The translations under genes were made by a program, and so were the position numbers. Under the pieces are notes generated by a model. That model saw only the letters and a program-made list of their open reading frames with translations, had not been told where the DNA came from and searched no databases. Positions 1 to 19,525 of a DNA stretch of 27,216 bases are shown here, piece after piece. Each line of letters starts with the position of its first letter. The stretch's first letter is position 1. This stretch comes from a virus, in the IMG/VR virus record IMGVR_UViG_3300033552_000049, positions 1 to 27,216 of that record; one strand, 5' to 3'.

Positions 1-741
1 TTGCGGAGTTGCCCCTTTGATACCCAGCACATCCCCTGCAAACGTGCCCTCACCCCCCACAAAGTCAGCCGCCTTATTGACCGCATTGACCACGCCGTCG
101 GGGAGTATTCGCTGTAAAAACTGTGCCGCCCCGTCAATTGGGTCTTTGCCGCCTTTAGCCAGCCTCATTGGTAAGCTGGTTATTAGTTTTTGCCGGTCTG
201 TAGGCTGTATAACCTCGTCTTTATCCCACGGGTTTCCTTGTGCTGCGTTAGCTGACGGCATAACCGCATCGGTGACAGCGTTCAACGCATCGACAACCGG
301 CCTTTTGGGCATGCGTGCAACTACTTGTTGACCATACTCCAATGTATTTGGTGCTTTTTTAAGATTCACCGGGTCATAGACAGCAATACCGCGACGCGCC
401 TTTTCCAGACCGCCTGGGCCGCCGTAATAGCCAGCGGCTGTCAGCGCAGGGTCGCCGCCCGATTGTTTGTCGAGCTGTTTTAAATAGCGAATGCCAGCAC
501 GCATATTCTGCTCAGGGTTTTGTATGTCCCAATCTTTATCTGCAACACTTTTAAATGTTTCAGGGATGATTTGCATACCGCCCATAGCATTGCGGTTGGA
601 AGTTTTCGTGCTCTTCCCGCCGCCGCTTTCCTGCTGGTAGATCGAACGCGCAACATCCGAAAGCTTTCCGGTTACGCCTTCACGCGCCAGGGCTGCATCA
701 AAAGGCGAAAGCACCGCGTCATTGTCCCAAGGGTTAGCCAT
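1..741 (-). CDS. Virion lytic transglycosylase / ejection protein (3' end cut off)
   Basis: The frame runs from the ATG at 741 to the left edge without a stop, so at least 247 residues are present and the C-terminus is missing. A soluble-lytic-transglycosylase domain fills residues 25-115: a likely catalytic Glu38 in QQESGGG, then GGMQIIP at 54-60, and YYGGPGG at 105-111, matching the family's E, GLMQ and AYNAG motifs. Such proteins are carried in the virion and cut peptidoglycan so that DNA can enter the cell. It is last in a set of three ejection-type genes, the position of gp16 in P22. Its ATG overlaps the preceding stop as TAATG. The motif NPWD occurs at residues 3-6 and again at 170-173. 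Beyond the SLT domain I recognise nothing. The domain call is firm; the ejection role is inferred from context. Confidence 0.8.
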   Translation of the reverse strand, partial: MANPWDNDAVLSPFDAALAREGVTGKLSDVARSIYQQESGGGKSTKTSNRNAMGGMQIIPETFKSVADKDWDIQNPEQNMRAGIRYLKQLDKQSGGDPALTAAGYYGGPGGLEKARRGIAVYDPVNLKKAPNTLEYGQQVVARMPKRPVVDALNAVTDAVMPSANAAQGNPWDKDEVIQPTDRQKLITSLPMRLAKGGKDPIDGAAQFLQRILPDGVVNAVNKAADFVGGEGTFAGDVLGIKGATPQ

Positions 742-9915: not shown

Positions 9916-11175
9916 TTATGGGCCCGTGTAAAAGTACGCGGTAAGCCTGCACACAACACCAGCACCGGCAGCCGGGGCCACGATGGTGGTCGCGGTCGCC
10001 GCCGCCGTTGCTTTGATTGGGCTTGATAGCTGCTCGTCCGTCACCGTCTTTGATGTACCTGCGCCCAGTGCGTTGCCATCGGTCCAGGCCAATGCTCCGG
10101 GGATGTTGGTGGACGTGAATCCAAGCGTCACCGCAGAACCTGCCACAGCCGTTGCAGACGTGTTGTGCAATGTGATGCGAATGCGCGTGATGTAGTGAAA
10201 CAATCCAGCGGCAGGCGCGGGAAGGTTCAGCGTCGCCGTTGTGTTTGCCACGGATAGGATGGTGGCCGATGTCACTGCTGGCAGCTGCATTCGCGCACCG
10301 TTGGTAGCGTCGCCCCTTGCACGGTCCCAGCTTGCGCCGTTGTAAACCATGTTGTGGGCGAGCATCTCCTCAAAATCGTTGTCATTGCTGCGGGCATCCT
10401 GCGGCCTGACGGATGAACTTTTACTGTAAGACTTGTGCAGCTTGATTTGCAAACGGAAAGCTGCCTGCGCTGTTGCTCCATTCGTGTAAACAATGCGCAT
10501 AAATCTTGCGCTTACGGCAACACTAAACACCCTCCCCGCTGCTGCTGGAATTGTGTAGGCGTCAGAAACATCCCAGTTTGTCCCGTTTGAAGACTGCTGA
10601 ATCTGCAACCCATCAACCGCACTGGCCTGGTCGGCGAACACGGCGACGCGCACGTCTGCAAACTCTGTGACGTCTTCACCTGTGCCTGTATAGACCGCGT
10701 TGGCCGCTAGTGCTGCGGTCGATACGTTCGCCGTGGATATGACGCCGTTGGCAACTTGAGTAACTGAGCCACTGACAGGCTGGGTCGCTTGAAAGAAAGT
10801 GCCGGACACTGGCTGCGTGGCCTGAAAGAATGCGCCACTTACAGGCTGTGTCGTTTGGAAGAACGAACCAGATACGGGCTGGGTCGCTTGGAAGAATGAA
10901 CCCGATACGGGTTGCGTAACCTGAAAGAATGTCCCACTGACTGGCTGTGTGGCCTGAAAGAACGACCCACTGACAGGGACGGGCGTCAGCCTTAGTTGCG
11001 CGTCTGTTAGCCCGGCGTAGTTCATCAAGGAAACAGGCATCGGATTGGTGGCACTGGTGTCAGTGGCGACACCATCCACACCCCAAACGACTTTCGTCCG
11101 CTGGTACTTGACGCCCGCGATCTCGTCGGAGGCGATTATTTCGCCAGTTGCGGGGAGCGTACTGTTATCAGCCAA
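9916..11175 (-). CDS. Repeat-bearing putative virion decoration/fibre protein (TTG start)
   Basis: The gene starts at TTG, directly after the portal stop and in the same frame, with AAGGGG eight bases upstream. The 419 residues fall into three parts: a conserved-looking N-terminus (residues 1-66, including GEIIASDEIAGVKYQRTKVV), six tandem 11-residue repeats at 67-132 of the form PVSGSFFQATQ followed by a partial seventh, and a Thr/Ala/Gly-rich beta domain to the end. Such short Gly/Ser/Gln repeats often make fibrous stalks in phage surface proteins. Its place between portal and scaffold suggests a head fibre or decoration. The repeat is plain in the sequence; the role is inferred. Confidence 0.65.
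   Translation of the reverse strand: MADNSTLPATGEIIASDEIAGVKYQRTKVVWGVDGVATDTSATNPMPVSLMNYAGLTDAQLRLTPVPVSGSFFQATQPVSGTFFQVTQPVSGSFFQATQPVSGSFFQTTQPVSGAFFQATQPVSGTFFQATQPVSGSVTQVANGVISTANVSTAALAANAVYTGTGEDVTEFADVRVAVFADQASAVDGLQIQQSSNGTNWDVSDAYTIPAAAGRVFSVAVSARFMRIVYTNGATAQAAFRLQIKLHKSYSKSSSVRPQDARSNDNDFEEMLAHNMVYNGASWDRARGDATNGARMQLPAVTSATILSVANTTATLNLPAPAAGLFHYITRIRITLHNTSATAVAGSAVTLGFTSTNIPGALAWTDGNALGAGTSKTVTDEQLSSPIKATAAATATTIVAPAAGAGVVCRLTAYFYTGP
10756..10977 (-). repeat. 33-bp tandem coding repeat, six copies plus a partial copy
   Basis: Six consecutive 33-base units encode the 11-residue motif PVSGxFFQxTQ, and a partial seventh encodes PVSGSVTQ. The units differ from each other at many third positions while the residues are nearly constant, so the array is not a fresh duplication. 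Confidence 0.9.
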
Positions 11176-13410: not shown

Positions 13411-14925
13411 TTAGAAGAAGAAGCCGTCAGAGCCTGGGCTGGCTTGCTCAATAGGTGAAAGATTGGATGATGCGACCACAGGCCGGGCAAAGGTCAAGCC
13501 CAAAGCATCGGCGGTGTCTGGTGATCGAAAGCCCCGCTTTTTCATATCTTCCTTACGCTCCATTTTGAGTGCGCTGTTGCTGTCATAGCTGTAGCGAATC
13601 TGGGTCAGATCAGCCTGCATTTCGTCGCTGTCCGGTATCTGTGCCGGTTGCGCTTCCATCCAAGACCTCATCTCGCCCCACATTTCAGCGCGCTTGTTTG
13701 TGTACTTCTTTGCGTCATACGGCGACTCAGAGCTATTCACTTGAACGAGGTCTGTGCTGCCATACGCGATCAACTCTTGCAAGCGGTCATAAACCCCTGC
13801 GCCCAGTCCGCCCACATCGACGGCCACCTGGTCAGGCTTTACCTCTTTGATGATCTGAAGCACCAGTCCAGCCACTTCCATCGTGCTTTTCTTGCTGTAG
13901 CTGCGAAGCCAATGAACCTTGCGGCCCTGACGGAAACAGATTGAGGTTCGGTCATCCCCGAAGCGGGCCGGGTCTACCCCGATCAGCTTAGGCCCGACTG
14001 CTTCAGCTTCTGCTTTGCGCGCCTTAACAACGATGTCGCTTTTAATGTACGGATCAAGCCCGGACACTTGGAAGGCCTCCGCAGCGGTTGCGGGATACTC
14101 CTGCTTGAATAGCGTGTCGTCCCGCAGCTCGACCGTCTTAGACCTCCTCCATGCCATCTGCTCAAGCGTCAGGCTGTAGGCGTCGCTGTAATCTTTTTCC
14201 TCCGGGGTCAACTCGAACCCAAGAGGGGGCCTCTTGATGTACTCAGGCTGCCAGAACCACGGAACAAAGATGGCCGTGTACTCTGACTGCCCAGCTTCTG
14301 CGGCCTGCCATTGCTGGTGAAAGTAGTTTCCGATGCCGTTGGCGGTTGACTCCATGATTGACTCGGTATCCGGCGCATCAGGGATGGCCTGCAGGATTCC
14401 AGCCGCGTGCATTTGTGCGTTAGGCCAGAACCCCACTTCAGAGCCGTGGAATAACTGGATTGTGGAGCCTCGCCCTACCGCCTTATTACCTGCGGTCCCA
14501 ACTTTGTAGCCTGAGTCCAACTTATTGAAATACAACTCTTTGGCGTTTGCTGCGCTGGTGCCTGGCTTGACCAAAAGCGGGCAGTTCTCGTGGTATCGGT
14601 TAGCAATCTCGAAAAGGTTATTGGTGGCCTCTTCCTCATGCGTAAGGATGAAAGCCCTCAAGCCCTTGGAATGGGTCACGCGCCAGTAATAACGGCCTTC
14701 AACGTACGTAGAGCACCCTTGCTGCCTGCCCTTCAGGATCAACGCCCTGATGCGCCCTGTGTCTTTTCGCTGCTGCTCTAGCCGCTCATGGATATACAAC
14801 TGAGCTGCATTCAGTATGAATGGCTCGACCTTTGCGTCCTTGGTGCGAATCTTCAAGCACTTGGCCGCGTAGTGGAGAAAATCATCCTTTAACCGCTGGC
14901 GAACCGATTGCTCGTCCTCGGTCAT
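13411..14925 (-). CDS. terL: Terminase large subunit
   Basis: This 504-residue protein is the ATPase-nuclease motor that drives DNA into the procapsid. The ATPase part has a variant Walker A (LKGRQQGCST, 64-73) and a Walker B-like ESIMESTANG at 188-197 with the catalytic Glu. The RNase H-like nuclease part shows acidic residues at Asp318 (GVDPARFGDD), Asp370 (VAVDVGG) and near the end (DTADALGL). The length is usual for the family. The gene overlaps terS by four bases (ATGA) and precedes the portal gene. I cannot tell headful from cos packaging from this alone. Confidence 0.95.
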   Translation of the reverse strand: MTEDEQSVRQRLKDDFLHYAAKCLKIRTKDAKVEPFILNAAQLYIHERLEQQRKDTGRIRALILKGRQQGCSTYVEGRYYWRVTHSKGLRAFILTHEEEATNNLFEIANRYHENCPLLVKPGTSAANAKELYFNKLDSGYKVGTAGNKAVGRGSTIQLFHGSEVGFWPNAQMHAAGILQAIPDAPDTESIMESTANGIGNYFHQQWQAAEAGQSEYTAIFVPWFWQPEYIKRPPLGFELTPEEKDYSDAYSLTLEQMAWRRSKTVELRDDTLFKQEYPATAAEAFQVSGLDPYIKSDIVVKARKAEAEAVGPKLIGVDPARFGDDRTSICFRQGRKVHWLRSYSKKSTMEVAGLVLQIIKEVKPDQVAVDVGGLGAGVYDRLQELIAYGSTDLVQVNSSESPYDAKKYTNKRAEMWGEMRSWMEAQPAQIPDSDEMQADLTQIRYSYDSNSALKMERKEDMKKRGFRSPDTADALGLTFARPVVASSNLSPIEQASPGSDGFFF

Positions 14926-15212
14926 TTAAGCGCATCGAGCGCCGCCTCGTGATTCGTCACTGATGCGTTCATCTCGACACTTGACAAACGAGGATGCACG
15001 TAAGGCGCGGCCATGTTCGCCGCTGCCAGTCGCTCGCGTGGCTCCGCTTCAACACTGCGCATCACACTGAGGATGTACTCCAGCGGGCTGATGCCCTCGT
15101 CCATAGCTTTGTTCGCTATCTCCCTGGTCTTCACAGTCGCAGCGCCAGCTTTGCGCCCCGCGTTCTTGCGTGCCCCGCCGCGCTTTGAATTGGTTTGATT
15201 GTTTTCAATCAT
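14922..15212 (-). CDS. terS: Terminase small subunit
   Basis: The 96-residue protein has the N-terminus typical of many small terminases (SKRGGARKNAGRKAGAATVK), followed by a helical core with SPLEYILSVM and RLAAANMAAPYVHPRL. Small terminases bind the packaging site on viral DNA and guide the large subunit to it. It is somewhat short compared with the 120-180 residues common in the group. It overlaps terL by ATGA. Its own ATG overlaps the stop of an upstream ATG-less frame, also as ATGA. The ribosome site before it is weak, which fits translational coupling. Confidence 0.85.
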   Translation of the reverse strand: MIENNQTNSKRGGARKNAGRKAGAATVKTREIANKAMDEGISPLEYILSVMRSVEAEPRERLAAANMAAPYVHPRLSSVEMNASVTNHEAALDALK

Positions 15213-16120: not shown

Positions 16121-16144
16121 AATGGCGGATGAATCGGGTGAAAC

Positions 16145-16253
16145 TTAACTAAGTGGTGGCCGGTGCTGATCTCCGGCTTACCGGTGGCGGCCTCCCGTTA
16201 CGGATAGAGAGGCTCGACTGCGCATCAGCACTGCGCATTCACCACTTAGTTAA
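16145..16253 (-). ncRNA. Strongly folded 109-nt element beside the tRNA (candidate structured RNA or DNA site)
   Basis: Perfect 14-base inverted repeats (TTAACTAAGTGGTG at 16145-16158, CACCACTTAGTTAA at 16240-16253) enclose a second perfect 8-bp stem (16163-16170 with 16224-16231). Inside that stand two hairpins: CCGG-ctta-CCGG at 16173-16184 and GCCTC/GAGGC at 16190-16213. The whole is a nested, branched fold. A 9-base direct repeat ACTGCGCAT lies at 16217 and 16230. No T run follows, so it is not a plain terminator. It could be a structured RNA processed with the tRNA, or a DNA site such as a packaging signal about 0.9 kb before terS. I match it to no known family. Confidence 0.45.
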
Positions 16254-16268
16254 ATTCCATCATAAACT

Positions 16269-16345
16269 TGGTTGCAAAGGTGGGATTTGAACCCACGACC
16301 TACGGGGTATGAACCCGCCGCTCTACCAAACTGAGCTACCCTGCG
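16269..16345 (-). tRNA. tRNA-Met (CAT), initiator-like, with encoded CCA
   Basis: The 77-base gene folds as a full cloverleaf with anticodon CAT at its usual place, T-loop TTCAAAT, variable loop AGGTC and the CCA end encoded. It has two hallmarks of bacterial initiator tRNA: a C1-A72 mismatch at the top of the acceptor stem (CGCAGGG against CTTTGCA) and three consecutive G-C pairs (GGG/CCC) at the bottom of the anticodon stem. The D stem, GCTC/GAGC, has C11-G24, as in elongator tRNAs, where bacterial initiators normally have purine 11 and pyrimidine 24. It is therefore most likely an fMet-type tRNA of mixed character. It is transcribed with the phage genes around it. Confidence 0.92.
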
Positions 16346-16480: not shown

Positions 16481-16951
16481 TTAACGCATGAAGCCTGCGA
16501 AGTGGTTGGATTCTTTCCATCGCAATCCAGCCCTCACCATGCGCGCAAGCTCTGTGCTTATCCCCAGTTCAAGCGCAATCACCTTATTGTGTTTGTCGCT
16601 CTCCCGGATATAACGCGCCTTGTCCATGTCCAGTTTTGCATTGTTCATACGCATTGACCGTTTGATAGCTGCCACCCTGCGCAGGCGCACTACCGGGTTC
16701 TTCGACGTTTCAATGCTTATCTGGCTGCGGGTCTTGACCACCATGTGGGCGCGGTGCAGGCATCCATGCTCGCCGCACTTCATCCGTACATGCTCTGTTT
16801 TGCCCAATGTCTTACCGCTGCTTTCGTACACTTCACGGCGAATGTTGATCTTGCCATATGTCGGTGTTCGGTTCCTTGCGGTGGCCCCGTGCCAAATGAT
16901 GCAATCGCCTGACTGCTCGCACATCGCCAATAACTGCTCTACGGTCTTCAT
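16481..16951 (-). CDS. HNH-like endonuclease / DNA-binding protein
   Basis: The 156-residue protein follows the plan of small phage HNH proteins: GDCIIWHGA near residue 15, TYGKINIRREVYE, then EHVRMKCGEHGCLHRAHM (residues 53-70) in the place of the H-x..C-xx-C..H motif. The C-terminal third reads as a helix-turn-helix: KLDMDKARYIRES, VIALELGISTELARMVRAG, RWK. The HNH core is degenerate, since the usual Asn is not obvious, so it may be a DNA binder and not an active nuclease. It overlaps its upstream neighbour by ATGA. In other phages such genes can be free-standing homing endonucleases, and it lies next to a tRNA. Confidence 0.65.
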   Translation of the reverse strand: MKTVEQLLAMCEQSGDCIIWHGATARNRTPTYGKINIRREVYESSGKTLGKTEHVRMKCGEHGCLHRAHMVVKTRSQISIETSKNPVVRLRRVAAIKRSMRMNNAKLDMDKARYIRESDKHNKVIALELGISTELARMVRAGLRWKESNHFAGFMR

Positions 16952-18691: not shown

Positions 18692-19525
18692 TTAATCTCC
18701 GCAGAAACACGAAATAGATTCTTCTTTTGGGTCAAACATATCATGCTGGTCGGCGGCGAATGCGGCCATCTGTGCATAACTTGGGCGGTCGCTTCGGAAC
18801 ACCGCGCCGCTTGGTTTGCTTGCCAGTGCCAGTGATTCCATTTTGGCCCACCACACGGCGCGCTCGGGTTTTTCCGCAATCAGACTTAGCACCTGCGCGC
18901 CACCTTTGAGAAAGCACAGGTCACAATTGCCGTGCATGGTCACGCCGTTGTTATTGGGAAGGCCCAAGTCAAAGGGTTGCGCACGCCAAAATGCGCCTAC
19001 ATCTTCTTTTGTAATGCCAGCCGCTACCAGTGGGATGCGCGACTTATCGGCAATCTTGGCGGCGCGGCGTTGCTCGTCTGCGCGCATCCCGATCATGCTC
19101 ATGTTTTCGGCTTCGGCCTTCGTTTCTGCCATGCCCAAACTAAGCAGGTAGCGACCTATCGGCCTGATCTTCAAATCAATCGTGCAAAACCGCGTAACGG
19201 GATTTGGCAAGTAATTGCGTTTGCGAATAAGCGCTTCAAACGGCTCCCCATTGCGACTGGCTGTCTCAAAACTCACTATTTCAAAACGCAATTCGGTATC
19301 GCGGAACTCAAGCCAAACAATCGGCACATTCCATGCTGTCGCACAGTCACGCACAAACCGCATCGTCGCCTCGTCTTCTTTACCTGTATTGGCAAAGCAC
19401 ACCACTGCGTCGTCCGGTAATTTGCCGCCGTGGCTTTGCAGTACACGCCACAGCATGTAGGCGCTGGTGCGACCGCCTGAAAAGCTGATGCAAGTCGGGC
19501 CGTCTATTTTGAATGGGTCGGTCAT
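18692..19525 (-). CDS. PAPS-reductase-family (ATP-PPase) protein
   Basis: This 277-residue protein has the adenylating P-loop SFSGGRTSAYML (14-25), the segment CFANTGKEDEATMRFV, and RFCTIDLKIRPIGRYL at 112-127, which is the CTxxLK pattern of PAPS reductase/DndC/IbrA-like proteins. A CDLC pair (201-204) and a final CFC (273-275) could bind a metal or Fe-S cluster. Related phage genes are of uncertain function; true sulphate reduction, nucleic-acid thiolation or a regulatory role have all been considered for the family. A ParB-like gene, its frequent partner in IbrA/IbrB pairs, lies about 5.6 kb upstream. The fold call is strong; the substrate is unknown. Confidence 0.85.
   Translation of the reverse strand: MTDPFKIDGPTCISFSGGRTSAYMLWRVLQSHGGKLPDDAVVCFANTGKEDEATMRFVRDCATAWNVPIVWLEFRDTELRFEIVSFETASRNGEPFEALIRKRNYLPNPVTRFCTIDLKIRPIGRYLLSLGMAETKAEAENMSMIGMRADEQRRAAKIADKSRIPLVAAGITKEDVGAFWRAQPFDLGLPNNNGVTMHGNCDLCFLKGGAQVLSLIAEKPERAVWWAKMESLALASKPSGAVFRSDRPSYAQMAAFAADQHDMFDPKEESISCFCGD

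Follow-up and report, generated by a model that had tools for sequence, protein, structure and literature searches.

A phage tRNA(CAU) gene combining initiator-type acceptor and anticodon stems with an elongator-type D-stem: a probable accessory initiator tRNA

The features that separate the bacterial initiator from the other tRNAs with a CAU anticodon were taken, with their frequencies, from a study that reannotated 9917 bacterial CAU genes (PMC5143459). C1-A72 occurs in 3392 of 4438 initiators as against 2 of 2762 elongator tRNA-Met and 1 of 2717 tRNA-Ile2 genes, and three stacked G-C pairs in the anticodon stem (GGG/CCC, or 3GC) occur in 3849 of 4438 initiators as against 2 of 2314 tRNA-Met and 1 of 2286 tRNA-Ile2 genes (PMC5143459). 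Positions 1 and 72 are mismatched in 98.6% of initiators and paired in 99.5% of elongators, while the D-stem pair 11:24 is A:U in 4430 and C:G in 3 of the 4438 initiators, and C:G in 2759 of 2762 elongator tRNA-Met genes (PMC5143459). Transfer of C1xA72 and 3GC into elongator tRNAs led to initiation in E. coli (PMC7949028). The formylation determinants are located in the acceptor stem (PMC9976931). Formylation is assisted by A11:U24, G2:C71 and C3:G70 (PMC7949028; PMC9976931) and by G4-C69 (PMC9976931; PMC7949028), with the contribution of A11:U24 being only an assisting one (PMC7949028). The formylation rate sets the use of a tRNA in initiation or elongation, and a C1xA72 initiator that lacks formylation can be used in elongation (PMC7949028).

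A second body of work concerns nucleases that cut tRNAs. VapC of enteric bacteria cuts the initiator tRNA (fMet) between A38 and C39 (PMC4105405). Phage tRNAs whose cut site is changed rescue cells from AriB (PMC12409363), and the tRNA-Tyr of phage T5 counters retron-Eco7 (PMC11555353). The principle of altered-site phage tRNAs was proposed by van den Berg et al. in 2023, in a survey where phages were reported generally to avoid tRNA-fMet where VapC cuts (PMC10264068).

The window, meaning the whole 27,216-nt stretch of viral DNA that was analysed, was found by ARAGORN to hold one tRNA, tRNA-Met(cat), on the minus strand (Table 1). The gene matched Rfam RF00005 at 63.9 bits (gathering score 29; E = 6.4e-12) and reads, 5' to 3', CGCAGGG TA GCTC AGTTTGGTA GAGC G GCGGG TTCATAC CCCGT AGGTC GTGGG TTCAAAT CCCAC CTTTGCA A CCA. 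It is full-length with every arm paired, and the minimum-energy fold of the tRNA strand is a cloverleaf in which the 1-72 end is open. C1-A72 is the sole unpaired position of the acceptor stem, where 5-68 and 6-67 are G-U pairs and 4-69 is A4-U69; A73 is present, and the D-arm is GCTC/GAGC. The first-pass annotation had described C1-A72, the three stacked G-C pairs (29-31/39-41) and C11-G24, and all of these were confirmed by the sequence and the RF00005 alignment. The DNA-encoded CCA and the anticodon loop UUCAUAC were additional to that description. No convincing promoter was found beside the tRNA, the one weak match being at the level of shuffled sequence.

Table 1. Positions of the tRNA(CAU) gene, its diagnostic residues and neighboring features in the window
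Feature	Position	Strand	Evidence
Full-length initiator-like tRNA(CAU) gene, C11:G24, encoded CCA	16269..16345	-	ARAGORN, Rfam RF00005, MFE fold
C1, mismatched to A72	16345	-	sequence
A72, mismatched to C1	16273	-	sequence
G29-G31, anticodon stem 5' side of three G-C pairs	16314..16316	-	sequence, RF00005 alignment
C39-C41, anticodon stem 3' side of three G-C pairs	16304..16306	-	sequence, RF00005 alignment
CAU anticodon in loop UUCAUAC (U32, C38; usual C32, A38)	16309..16311	-	sequence, chromosomal comparison
C11 of elongator-type C11:G24 pair	16335 (G24 at 16321)	-	sequence, literature counts
CCA end, DNA-encoded	16269..16271	-	sequence
Terminase large subunit (terL), first of structural gene block	13411..14925	-	phrog_2 3.6e-30; IMG/VR relatives at 95% identity
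Terminase small subunit (terS), ATG start	14922..15212	-	phrog_641 1.2e-7, phrog_15261 6e-19
HNH endonuclease-like gene, upstream of tRNA	16481..16951	-	phrog_826 2.3e-4, weak
Folded non-coding element, 19-bp terminal stem, just downstream of tRNA	16140..16262	-	-56.2 kcal/mol, z = -5.9

The marks of the three CAU classes were compared in this tRNA. The 1-72 mismatch and GGG/CCC of bacterial initiators are present and A11:U24 is absent; of the elongator tRNA-Met marks, C11:G24 is present and a paired 1-72 is absent; the tRNA-Ile2 marks, a paired 1-72 and an anticodon stem other than GGG/CCC, are both absent. Of four minor formylation determinants, three were retained (G2-C71, C3-G70 and A73), with G4-C69 replaced by A4-U69. 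From the published counts, naive and rough odds, calculated with pseudocounts and assuming independence of features, favored an initiator over tRNA-Met by 535:1 and over tRNA-Ile2 by 1450:1, despite C11:G24. A tRNA-Ile2, carrying lysidine in its CAU anticodon and decoding AUA, would account for the anticodon and for the C11:G24 D-stem, which is common to Ile2 genes (PMC5143459), but the single occurrences of C1-A72 and of GGG/CCC among the Ile2 genes, together with the latter odds, make this assignment scarcely credible. The overall identity was 84% to other phage tRNAs of the same hybrid form, 77% to E. coli fMet, 66% to Ile2 and 62% to elongator Met. Judged on these features, the phage tRNA is very probably able to initiate. 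It is considered a variant rather than a standard tRNAfMet because one near-invariant mark of bacterial initiators, the 11:24 pair, fails.

The same combination was sought in IMG/VR by scans that are samples and not a census, with a parser that took in well-formed tRNAs only. CAU tRNAs with C11:G24 and 3GC were found in at least 119 stretches, yielding at least 70 distinct well-formed phage tRNAs besides that of the window; among the matches listed, 45 of these 70 had a 1-72 mismatch, most commonly C-A. The canonical A11:U24 initiator form was represented in viruses by at least 89 distinct tRNAs. The two initiator marks were associated with each other: among the matches listed, 1-72 was mismatched in 37 of 61 C11:G24 CAU tRNAs with 3GC versus 14 of 106 without (p = 2.5e-10; non-redundant tRNAs, C1-biased loci left out). 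In 46 non-redundant hybrids among the matches listed, mismatches were present at 1-72 in 32 of 46 cases versus 6 of 276 at positions 2-7, and several pair types were seen at 4-69 to 7-66. The concentration of mismatches at 1-72 in an otherwise maintained stem points to selection for an open end rather than to decay.

These data bear on the proposal that the gene encodes an elongator tRNA-Met which has undergone drift at 1-72, carries GGG/CCC by chance and serves internal AUG codons. The C11:G24 pair and the GCTC/GAGC D-arm are indeed of elongator type, and the entry of unformylated C1xA72 initiators into elongation (PMC7949028) is in keeping with it. Drift is nevertheless unlikely, as it is opposed by the association of the two marks across phages, by the localization of the mismatches to 1-72 (both among the matches listed) and by the near-absence of either mark from elongators (PMC5143459). 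Slightly less unlikely, though still improbable, is a dual-use initiator of low formylation that takes part in both initiation and elongation, with C11:G24 and A4-U69 weakening formylation. This is supported by the lack of the formylation-assisting A11:U24 and G4-C69 and by the decisive role of formylation rate (PMC7949028), while the retention of all the major determinants, C1-A72, G2-C71, C3-G70 and A73, argues against it.

Whether 3GC is universal in the C1-A72, C11:G24 class was examined in a separate scan for C1, C11:G24 and CAU, which gave at least 86 distinct tRNAs, with A72 in 67 of 86 among the matches listed. Among the 75 listed tRNAs of this C1-selected scan that were not C-G, the anticodon stem was GGA/UCC in 32 and GGG/CCC in 8. 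Universality was therefore rejected, GGA/UCC being the commonest stem among the C1-selected matches listed, and with GGG/CCC in only 8 of 75, 3GC is not shared by every member of the class. The mark kept most persistently is the open acceptor end, 3GC being frequent without being universal. A related phage group (L345, L406, L509 and others) has C1-A72 and an fMet acceptor stem, yet GGA/UCC and a non-initiator D-stem. The first-pass description of an initiator-like tRNA with an elongator D-stem is right and applies to a recurrent phage class, and the competence of such tRNAs in initiation is backed by the literature counts and the transplant experiments. This phage variant of the initiator tRNA is real and recurrent. 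No description of the hybrid class was found in the open-access literature, to which the search was confined.

In bacterial chromosomes the pattern was rare. It was present in 2 of 398 Pseudomonadota genomes, one of which was the search centre (1 of 397 besides the centre), and the canonical initiator pattern was present in 220 of the 398. The form GAGC...GGGTTCATACCCC...GTC gave four matches in approximately 85,000 species genomes, all from Burkholderiales by name. At three of five bacterial loci examined, nearby ORFs matched phage families, which is consistent with these three loci being prophages. All but two of the canonical chromosomal matches listed in Pseudomonadota had the anticodon loop CTCATAA, and the U32/C38 loop version of the A11:U24 form was found in none of the 398 genomes.

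In the anticodon loop of the phage tRNA, C38 replaces A38 at the A38/C39 site of VapC, a change at a known nuclease site. Among the matches listed, the UUCAUAC loop was present in 17 of 45 hybrids versus 6 of 89 phage initiators with A11:U24 (raw p = 1.6e-5). U32/C38 as a hallmark of the hybrids was rejected, since among the matches listed p rose to 0.08 after de-duplication at 90% and the signal was gone at 80%. The UUCAUAC loop was also observed in some elongator-type phage tRNAs. U32/C38 was kept solely as a contrast between phages and chromosomes, and as an unproven lead toward nuclease escape.

The tRNA lies approximately 1 kb upstream of terS, which is followed by terL, the portal gene and the structural genes, all on the same strand. 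The folded element between the tRNA and terS matched nothing in Rfam and had no relatives in the phage records; it could serve in processing or termination, or form a packaging site. None of 80 TerL relatives examined in IMG/VR, including the nearest (TerL 95% identical), had this tRNA at the same site; some had other tRNAs at other places. Since close relatives lack it, the tRNA was deduced to be dispensable, an accessory gene that lies outside the phage core and was probably acquired at the boundary between the terminase and the late genes. The window also contains a gene for a phosphoadenosine phosphosulfate reductase-like protein (18692-19525, minus strand; phrog_424, 8.6e-48), an auxiliary metabolic gene. 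tRNA genes often serve as phage integration sites. That fact and the absence of the tRNA from close relatives would suit a gene that is a functionless passenger or the remnant of an attachment site. Such an origin is very unlikely given a full-length gene in which every arm is paired and the CCA is encoded, the lack of an integrase among the ORFs tested in the window, and a sequence that is not of host type, in which the one mismatch, at 1-72, is the selected one.

The position near the terminase is shared by other phages. A CAU tRNA was found directly after terL in PaMx74, QDWS359 and ZS04, all three with other 11:24 or stem variants, and in PaMx74 and ZS04 it is without annotation in the record. 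Families of the terminase large subunit accounted for approximately 11 of the 75 large ORFs lying no more than 3 kb from initiator-like tRNAs, versus 2 of 74 near elongator-like CAU tRNAs (p = 0.017; summed from family tables and not locus by locus, the idea having arisen from related data). This is only suggestive of co-expression of initiator-like tRNAs with the late genes. In one relative (L130, 2695-3040) a permuted tmRNA with the tag ANDAQFLVAANA was identified by ARAGORN just upstream of terL, and the same neighborhood may therefore collect other translation RNAs.

It had also been suggested at first pass that the tRNA might favor non-ATG starts, for which the support is weak overall. 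A TTG start at 11175 is credible, having AGGGG 8 nt upstream as a good Shine-Dalgarno sequence and a reading of (f)MADNSTLPATGE. The ATT start proposed before terS was wrong, since the terS ATG at 15212 directly follows an in-frame TGA. The TTG lies immediately after the portal stop codon and opens a 419-aa ORF (9916-11175, minus strand), which has QPVSGSFFQ repeats close to its N terminus and gave no PHROG or Pfam match.

Taken together, the gene is probably a phage-owned, accessory initiator tRNA that would serve starts at times when the host's own initiator runs short or comes under attack. The steps proposed for it follow from its sequence and published rules. The CAU anticodon would direct charging by MetRS, and Met-tRNA formyltransferase would be expected to formylate the product because C1-A72, G2-C71, C3-G70 and A73 are intact, with C11:G24 and A4-U69 predicted to lower the efficiency without abolishing it. 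Acceptance by IF2 and in the 30S P site would then be expected, given the formyl group and the 3GC anticodon stem. In this way start codons could be kept served in phage gene expression. Phage tRNAs are usually attributed to codon supply, which cannot account for an initiator tRNA, since such a tRNA reads a single codon and does so once per protein; we infer that the purposes left are an increase in the capacity for initiation or a substitute for a damaged host initiator. The U32/C38 loop would alter the A38/C39 site of VapC-type nucleases, and by analogy with altered-site tRNAs the phage tRNA may be a damage-resistant replacement for a cleaved host initiator. More tentatively, and with a good deal of doubt, we hypothesize that phages maintain an initiator-tRNA class of their own (open 1-72, 3GC, elongator body, often U32/C38), distinct from that of the sampled bacteria, which would remain active under defences by which the host initiator is cut, acetylated or depleted, so that late genes start while host translation stops.

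Many initiator-like phage tRNAs are present in IMG/VR, though the survey cited above reported avoidance of tRNA-fMet where VapC cuts (PMC10264068), and a large share of them carry a D-stem pair lacking in 99.8% of bacterial initiators. The hybrids offer a natural test both of the role of 11:24 in initiation and of phage protection of translation initiation against tRNA-cutting defences. Such genes may be mislabelled as elongator Met or missed, as with the two records whose initiator-like CAU tRNA has no tRNA feature at its position.

Compared with bacterial tRNAfMet, the phage tRNA has the same C1-A72, G2-C71, C3-G70, A73, three G-C pairs, encoded CCA, CAU and D-loop length, and shares 77% identity with its E. 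coli counterpart. It differs in C11:G24 (not A11:U24), A9 (not G9) and UUCAUAC (not CUCAUAA), and, in the acceptor stem, in A4-U69 and the two G-U pairs. Phage-encoded initiator tRNAs are annotated elsewhere: the wastewater huge phage 1-SewaA has an annotated tRNA-fMet, and in Stenotrophomonas phage QDWS359 an annotated tRNA-fMet adjoins terL, as the initiator-like tRNA lies near the terminase here, although that of QDWS359 has A11:U24. With T5 tRNA-Tyr (retron-Eco7) and T5 tRNA-Lys, -Thr and -Asn (AriB of PARIS) it shares a loop that departs from the host consensus beside a nuclease site; those cases differ in that here the initiator itself would be targeted, and the open-access literature searched describes no phage tRNA of this kind for it. 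The laboratory chimeras, in which tRNA-Met or tRNA-Gln was given C1xA72 and 3GC, have the same two initiator features on an elongator body (PMC7949028). Those were engineered and the phage tRNA is natural (PMC7949028), and by this analogy it looks like a natural counterpart of the transplant construct.
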